Of a stretch of 64,000 nucleotides of DNA, positions 32,283-33,839 are shown piece by piece. The stretch spans positions 62,001 to 126,000 of the forward strand of contig JAATGV010000008.1 in the NCBI GenBank assembly GCA_015654475.1, given 5' to 3'. Position numbers and translations under genes: made by a program. The notes beneath the pieces are model-generated. The model was not told the origin of the DNA and did no database searches. It saw only the letters and a list, made by a program, of their open reading frames with translations. This stretch comes from Actinomycetales bacterium. Its GTDB lineage: Bacteria > Actinomycetota > Actinomycetes > Actinomycetales > Microbacteriaceae. Positions within the stretch are counted from its first letter, which is position 1, and each line of letters starts with the position of its first letter.

Positions 32283-33839
32283 ATGGGATCCATCATCGGA
32301 GTGCCGCGCGAGAGTCTTTCAGGAGAGCGAATGGTCGCGGCGACACCTAAGACCACTGCACAACTCACCGCACTCGGCTACACAGTTGTCGTCGAATCGG
32401 GAGCAGGTGAAGAAGCCAATTACTCCGATGCCGAGTATGTGGCGGCCGGAGCGACCATCGTCGATGCTGCAGCTGTGTGGTCGAGTGACATTGTCATTCA
32501 CGTCGATCCGCCAACCCCAGACGAGATCTCGAGACTCAAGCCCGGGGCTGTGTCCGTCAGCATGTTCTACCCTGCAAGCAATCCTGACCTCCTGACTCAG
32601 ATTTCGGAACGCGGTGCGACCGCGCTCGCCCTCGACGCTGTCCCGCGCATTTCGCGTGCGCAGTCACTCGACGCACTCAGCTCGATGTCGAATGCCTCGG
32701 GCTACCGCGGCGTCATCGAGGCCGCCGACGCGTATGGTGCGATGCTCGCCGGCCAAGTTACCGCCGCGGGCAAGACGGCGCCGGCAAAGGTTTTCGTCAT
32801 CGGTGCCGGTGTCGCTGGGCTGGCTGCGCTTGGTACCGCTGGTAGCCTCGGCGCTGAGGTGAGCGCATTCGACGTGCGTGCCGAGGTTGGCTAGCAGATC
32901 GAGTCGATGGGTGCCAGGTTTGTGCAAGCGGAGATCCCTCAGCAGGCCAGCGCGAGCGGCTATGCGAGTGAGCTCACCGAGGAGCAGGAACGGCTCACCA
33001 CGGAGATGTATGCGCGTGAGACGGCCAAGGCAGACATCGTCATCACGACAGCACTTGTGCGAGGCAAGGCACCGCGCACGATCTCGGCTGAGATGGTCGC
33101 CGCCATGCGCCCGGGTTCGGTCATCGTCGACCTTGCTGCTTCGGGGGGCGGCAACTGCGAGCTGACCGTTCCCGGAGAAAAGATCGTCACCGACAACGGT
33201 GTGACCATCATCGGATACACAGACCTGACAAGTCGCATGGCCACACACACTTCGCAGCTGTACGGCACAAACATCGTCAATATGTTCAAGTTGCTCACCC
33301 CGGCCAAAGACGGGCAGATCGTCTGGAACATGGACGATGTGGTCCAGCGCGGTGTCGCTGTTGTCCTCAACGGCACAATTCAGTGGCCGCCGCCCCCTGT
33401 TCCGGTCTCGGCCGCCCCCGCTGAGGCGGTTGCGGCTGCGCCGGTGGTGAGCCCCGAGGAGAAGGCGGCAGCCGATGAGGCCGCCGCGAAACGGCGAAGC
33501 AGCCGAACCATTATGTGGGGCGCGATTGCGGCAGTCCTTGTCGGCCTTGCCGTGACGTTCTCGCCAAGCTCTTTCGGCAACTTTTTCACGGTCTTTATCC
33601 TGGCCGTCTTCATCGGGTACTACGTCATATCCAATGTCAGCCATTCACTGCATACACCGCTGATGGCGCAGACCAACGCGATTTCTGGCATCATCCTGAC
33701 CGGTGCGCTGCTTCAGCTCGGCTCGGAAAACCTGCTCGTCACAATTTTCGCCTTCATCGCTGCGGCGGTGGCCGCCATCAACATCTTCGGCGGGTTTGTC
33801 GTCGCCTATCGAATGCTCAGTATGTTTAGGAGGGGATAG
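32283..33839 (+). pseudogene. pntA: NAD(P) transhydrogenase subunit alpha, interrupted by an in-frame amber codon
   Basis: PntA/PntB couple the proton gradient to hydride transfer from NADH to NADP. From ATG 32283 (AAGGAAG 5 bp upstream) the frame runs [21 protein letters not shown] to the Rossmann motif GAGVAGLAALG and then hits TAG at 32892-32894, codon 204. The same frame continues directly with QIESMGARFVQAEIPQQA, the rest of domain I, and the membrane part to 33839. Without the TAG the product would be 518 residues, normal for PntA. The break is inside the NAD-binding fold, not at the natural PntAA/PntAB split. One base change from GAG or CAG explains it. Restart at ATG 32907 would lack the dinucleotide motif. 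Confidence 0.85.

Follow-up and report, generated by a model that had tools for sequence, protein, structure and literature searches.

A private in-frame amber codon in an otherwise intact pntA, read against other lone stop codons of the same draft assembly

In-frame stops in bacterial genes are an already known phenomenon. Belinky et al. 2021 (PMC7918605) trace them to annotation artefacts, sequencing errors, pseudogenes and functional genes, and require recurrence in two genomes to exclude errors. The cases described there share with the gene studied here a single stop, a frame intact on both sides and low dN/dS. They recur in at least two genomes, whereas the present stop is private among the loci aligned and hence lacks the recurrence asked for there. 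The gene is pntA, and two arrangements of its product serve for comparison. As in the one-piece PntA with PntB, the locus has three Pfam domains in order and pntB directly downstream, and it differs in its private in-frame stop. With the split PntAA/PntAB type it shares an alpha subunit that lies in more than one open frame; the split type has its border after domain I (alignments ending at residues 370–396), whereas the break here, at residue 204, lies away from the junction of soluble domain I with the membrane part.

The window is a stretch of 64,000 nucleotides from an Actinomycetales bacterium (Microbacteriaceae), whose draft genome amounts to 2.41 Mb in 42 contigs. The features of the locus are as follows.

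32283..33839, + strand: pntA, alpha subunit of proton-translocating NAD(P) transhydrogenase; 518 codons, interrupted by a single TAG, three Pfam domains in one frame
32283..32891, + strand: first open part of pntA, 203 codons; carries AlaDh_PNT_N and the beginning of the NAD-binding domain
32892..32894, + strand: in-frame TAG, pntA codon 204; Glu in 16/58 and Asp in 42/58 of the relatives' pntA loci
32907..33839, + strand: remainder of pntA, 310 codons, open from an in-frame ATG four codons past the TAG
33842..35230, + strand: pntB, intact, GTG start; AGGAGG within the end of pntA

The TAG sits between ...AFDVRAEVG and QIESMGARFV of PntA. When the stop was translated as X, Pfam matches followed one another in the order AlaDh_PNT_N (residues 6–137), AlaDh_PNT_C (144–368) and PNTB_4TM (435–517), the second of which spans the stop. 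These matches bear out an earlier note on this DNA, which had read the frame as PntA on both sides of the TAG and placed the break inside the NAD-binding fold rather than at the PntAA/PntAB border. The note was also right that nothing else in the 518-codon frame is disturbed, the TAG being the sole lesion, and that pntB is intact, with a PNTB match over residues 8–460 of its product. Three domains in one frame and an adjoining, intact pntB place the gene in PntA, the only pntA match that genome searches found in this genome, and two collinear PntA halves sharing a frame are not a product of chance. An in-frame ATG at 32265, 18 bases upstream, would give 209 codons to the stop; the start at 32283 is favoured because a Shine-Dalgarno-like GAAGGAAG lies immediately 5' of it.

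The comparison of codon 204 in close relatives proposed in the earlier note was carried out on a set drawn entirely from outside the bacterium's own genus. Sixty loci aligned over the site, and 58 were taken as PntA after the distant rows L031 and L032 had been dropped; three genomes contribute two loci each. The column holds Glu 16 times, Asp 42 times and a stop in 0/58, so the stop is private, and none of the aligned loci splits PntA at 204. Among seven distant relatives (L024–L030, 39–46% identical), six alignments end at residues 370–396, which we read as probably the expected split PntAA/PntAB type, and the seventh (L027) continues through one stop. The alignments of L015 and L002 end at 241 and 373, at contig ends by their coordinates. 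Two distant loci from a contig search, 28–29% identical to the read-through PntA, were taken as not PntA.

Downstream of the stop, pntA is constrained like pntB and shows no sign of decay. The nearest pntA, that of genome G103, is 73% identical over the second part and has Glu in the codon 204 column. Against it, dN and dS are 0.288 and 1.69 for the first part, 0.195 and 1.40 for the part past the stop, and 0.187 and 1.72 for pntB, with every dS above 1 and saturated. The several lesions and the relaxed downstream constraint of a decayed pseudogene are thus both missing from pntA. Its only departure at the 109 columns that 53 orthologues hold invariant is Leu for Ile.

Lone in-frame stops occur in at least seven genes of the same draft besides pntA. 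The key comparison for the pntA stop is the interrupted, only gltX of the genome (L110, C42:12900–16500, minus strand), in which a lone TAG at C42:14766 is directly followed by ATG and is spanned by a Pfam match. The other PF00749 match in the genome is a 333-codon frame that is GluQ-like by size. The gltX stop column is Glu in 33/33 orthologues, and at 174 invariant columns there are 3 departures besides the stop. A gltX search matched 110/119 genomes, own included, and no stop was reported in the 109 other rows, of which G038 does not cover the site; a second search, run with the family, matched 246/249 genomes, with no stop among the matches listed (own genome not among them). Reading TAG ATG in gltX as a stop-start junction was dropped, as Met directly follows the stop position in 5/33 orthologues, the two nearest included. 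gltX is expected to be essential. An unsuppressed stop in the sole copy should therefore be lethal, and plain loss does not account for this stop. The remaining genes are these.

L165:5921-7237: trpB, lone TAG, Pfam match spans the stop
L181:10447-12954: GH3 glucosidase, lone TAG, Pfam match spans the stop
L173:7890-8831: CAAX-type protease, lone TAG, Pfam match spans the stop
L184:19493-19999: NUDIX gene, lone TAG, Pfam match spans the stop
L171:1636-2421: uppS, lone TGA, Pfam match spans the stop
L143: ABC exporter, lone TAA, one of 80 ABC_tran matches in the genome

Five of these came from an ab initio stop scan of contig stretches picked without regard to stops, in two samples totalling 797 kb. 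No lone stop was accepted in the first sample (397 kb; C17, C25 and C27), and five were accepted in the second (400 kb; C28, C19, C6 and C35), namely those in trpB, the CAAX-type protease, GH3, NUDIX and uppS genes. The five are confined to C28, C19 and C35, a distribution of 5 in 300 kb versus 0 in 497 kb that was seen post hoc. The same scan returned 42 candidates in 600 kb of relative G118 and 19 in 210 kb of G103, none recognised as inside a gene; the chance of all five stops landing in the own genome rather than in the scanned relatives is 0.03. In all genomes, candidates were sorted by reading into those inside a gene and those at a gene end or next start. Pfam was applied to the five accepted sites, pntA and gltX; the ABC exporter was checked separately, and the relatives' candidates were judged by reading only. 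Across the eight sites, TAG occurs six times and TAA and TGA once each; at least 6/8 TAG has a probability of 0.13–0.22 under random substitution (four models), in a set where pntA and gltX are not random draws.

Within the ~265 kb reached by homologues (264,882 of 979,195 bases in the cleaned homology scan, overlapping loci counted), no frameshift was recognised. The ten rows of that scan were pntA, gltX, trpB, NUDIX, one NUDIX duplicate locus, and five that were antisense or outside a gene. Three frame-change pairs were rejected as frameshifts on reading, two being antisense and the third being two adjacent ABC genes. Scans with the relatives' unfiltered open reading frames gave many antisense artefacts, and a scan with G108 frames filtered by codon score mapped 41 genes. 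An early impression that genes at 1–14000 of the window were broken proved wrong on reading.

We put at about an even chance the reading that the pntA TAG belongs to a sparse scatter of lone nonsense substitutions across the genome, most likely consensus errors and not mutations of the cell. A scatter is preferred over a pntA-specific event because the stop is private, the downstream sequence is intact, gltX and six more genes are affected, three stop codons are involved and no frameshift was recognised. We infer sequence error as the cause of the scatter; like lesions lie elsewhere in the assembly, including in a gene the cell needs, as error would have it. Such errors might enter the consensus through low coverage or mixed reads, and the organism would then encode a normal PntA of full length and a functional transhydrogenase. 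Several points count against error. Since about 2.9% of random substitutions in coding sequence create a stop, five stops in 797 kb imply, by our estimate and if all are errors, roughly one erroneous base every 4 kb, which is rather high given the lack of recognised frameshifts. The completeness of 98% and contamination of 0.9% also count against it, as does the clustering of the five stops in C28, C19 and C35. The departures at invariant columns (pntA 1/109, gltX 3/174) say little, and real nonsense mutations would look alike in every gene except gltX and perhaps uppS. Among the three options of the earlier note, loss, suppression and error, the weight shifts toward a genome-wide scatter, most simply of consensus errors. 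Consensus error is the simplest reading, real nonsense in non-essential genes including pntA comes next, and suppression or leakiness would explain all the stops with little positive support. A lone stop should accordingly be read against the rest of its assembly before loss or recoding is called.

A real and very recent nonsense mutation is the foremost alternative, with perhaps one chance in four. PntA would be lost, its 203-residue fragment non-functional and pntB possibly reduced by polarity, and the other stops would be real too, except that in gltX. Such a loss may alter NADPH supply, as the earlier note proposed. A single lesion without decay fits a young event, and many genomes of the family lack transhydrogenase. 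The second part of pntA, which detects the one-piece type only, has matches in 54/398 family genomes, own included (E 1e-60), with no internal stop reported in these 54 rows; the first part, which detects both one-piece and split types, has matches in 15/59 other family genomes (E 2e-34 or better). The like lesion in the sole gltX, however, cannot be simple loss. Real pseudogenes usually carry both nonsense changes and frameshifts, yet no frameshift was recognised here beside the nonsense changes.

Readthrough or suppression, which we regard as unlikely, would supply enough full-length PntA and GltX through a UAG-reading tRNA, such as a tRNA-Glu relative in the assembly gaps, or through leaky termination. 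If the gltX TAG is real, its product must be made somehow; six of the eight lone stops are TAG, and in-frame stops under purifying selection are reported in many bacteria (PMC7918605). PMC11126739 gives the order of readthrough in E. coli as TGA > TAG > TAA. Against suppression, none of the 45 tRNA genes examined with ARAGORN has a CTA, TTA or TCA anticodon. The suppressor tRNA with a CUA anticodon suggested in the earlier note is therefore absent from this inventory, which is incomplete for tRNA-Glu genes lying in assembly gaps: the 45 include no tRNA-Glu, and the one CTC (tRNA-Glu) gene found is cut off where C42 begins (C42:1-50). tRNA-Glu often adjoins tRNA-Asp, and contig C26 ends 19 bases past a tRNA-Asp gene. 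With the C42 gene cut and C26 ending where it does, a UAG-reading tRNA-Glu relative could hide in a gap, and this absence of tRNA-Glu from the list is a point for suppression.

Other findings weigh against it. RF1 and RF2 are both intact, as identified by PVT and SPF, which we take to be their respective motifs. TAG terminates 166/477 long genes, which would put a high price on strong amber suppression; neither the rare UAG terminator nor the loss of RF1 that would mark UAG reassignment is seen. Lone TAA and TGA occur too, and the stop column, although Glu in gltX and in the nearest relatives of pntA, is Ser in the single aligned relative of trpB and varies in the ABC exporter. Around the pntA stop, the RNA shows neither unusual structure (z -0.6) nor an Rfam match. 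An amber suppressor specific to tRNA-Glu, an idea prompted by the gltX Glu column and the absent tRNA-Glu, was rejected on the three stop codons involved and the Ser column of the trpB relative.

A stronger form of this reading, to which we would give about one chance in ten, takes the stops as real: the lineage would tolerate lone UAG codons, along with a small number of UAA and UGA, in conserved genes including the only gltX, by suppression or leaky termination and possibly through a tRNA in the tRNA-Glu gaps, with UAG still ending a third of genes. If the gltX and pntA stops are true, they would offer a testable natural case of nonsense suppression in an actinobacterium.

A two-piece PntA made by stopping at the TAG, restarting at the ATG four codons on and assembling the pieces is very improbable: it can point to that ATG at 32907 and to the ATG directly after the gltX TAG, but no aligned relative splits PntA at 204, the Met looks inherited in both genes (it is present in the nearest relatives of pntA and in the gltX orthologues noted above), no strong ribosome site was seen before the ATG at 32907, the next ATG, GTG or TTG in the other six genes lies 2–47 codons on, as by chance, and the break would part strands of what we take, from knowledge of the fold, to be a single Rossmann sheet.

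Some minor observations concern tRNA genes and the distribution of pntAB. Assembly breaks fall at or near tRNA-Glu genes (L114, L111). An 84-base tRNA-like gene (L077, C17:128273-128456) was read as tRNA-Gly(gcc), and its anticodon arm is abnormal; considered as a hidden suppressor, it gave no convincing CUA reading. By gltX the closest relative is G108 (76%). It does not appear among the one-piece pntA matches, in a search whose sample we infer to have included it, and it may be of the split type. The best matches of the first part of pntA lie in other families. Together, G108 without a one-piece match and best matches outside the family hint at patchy loss or transfer of pntAB.
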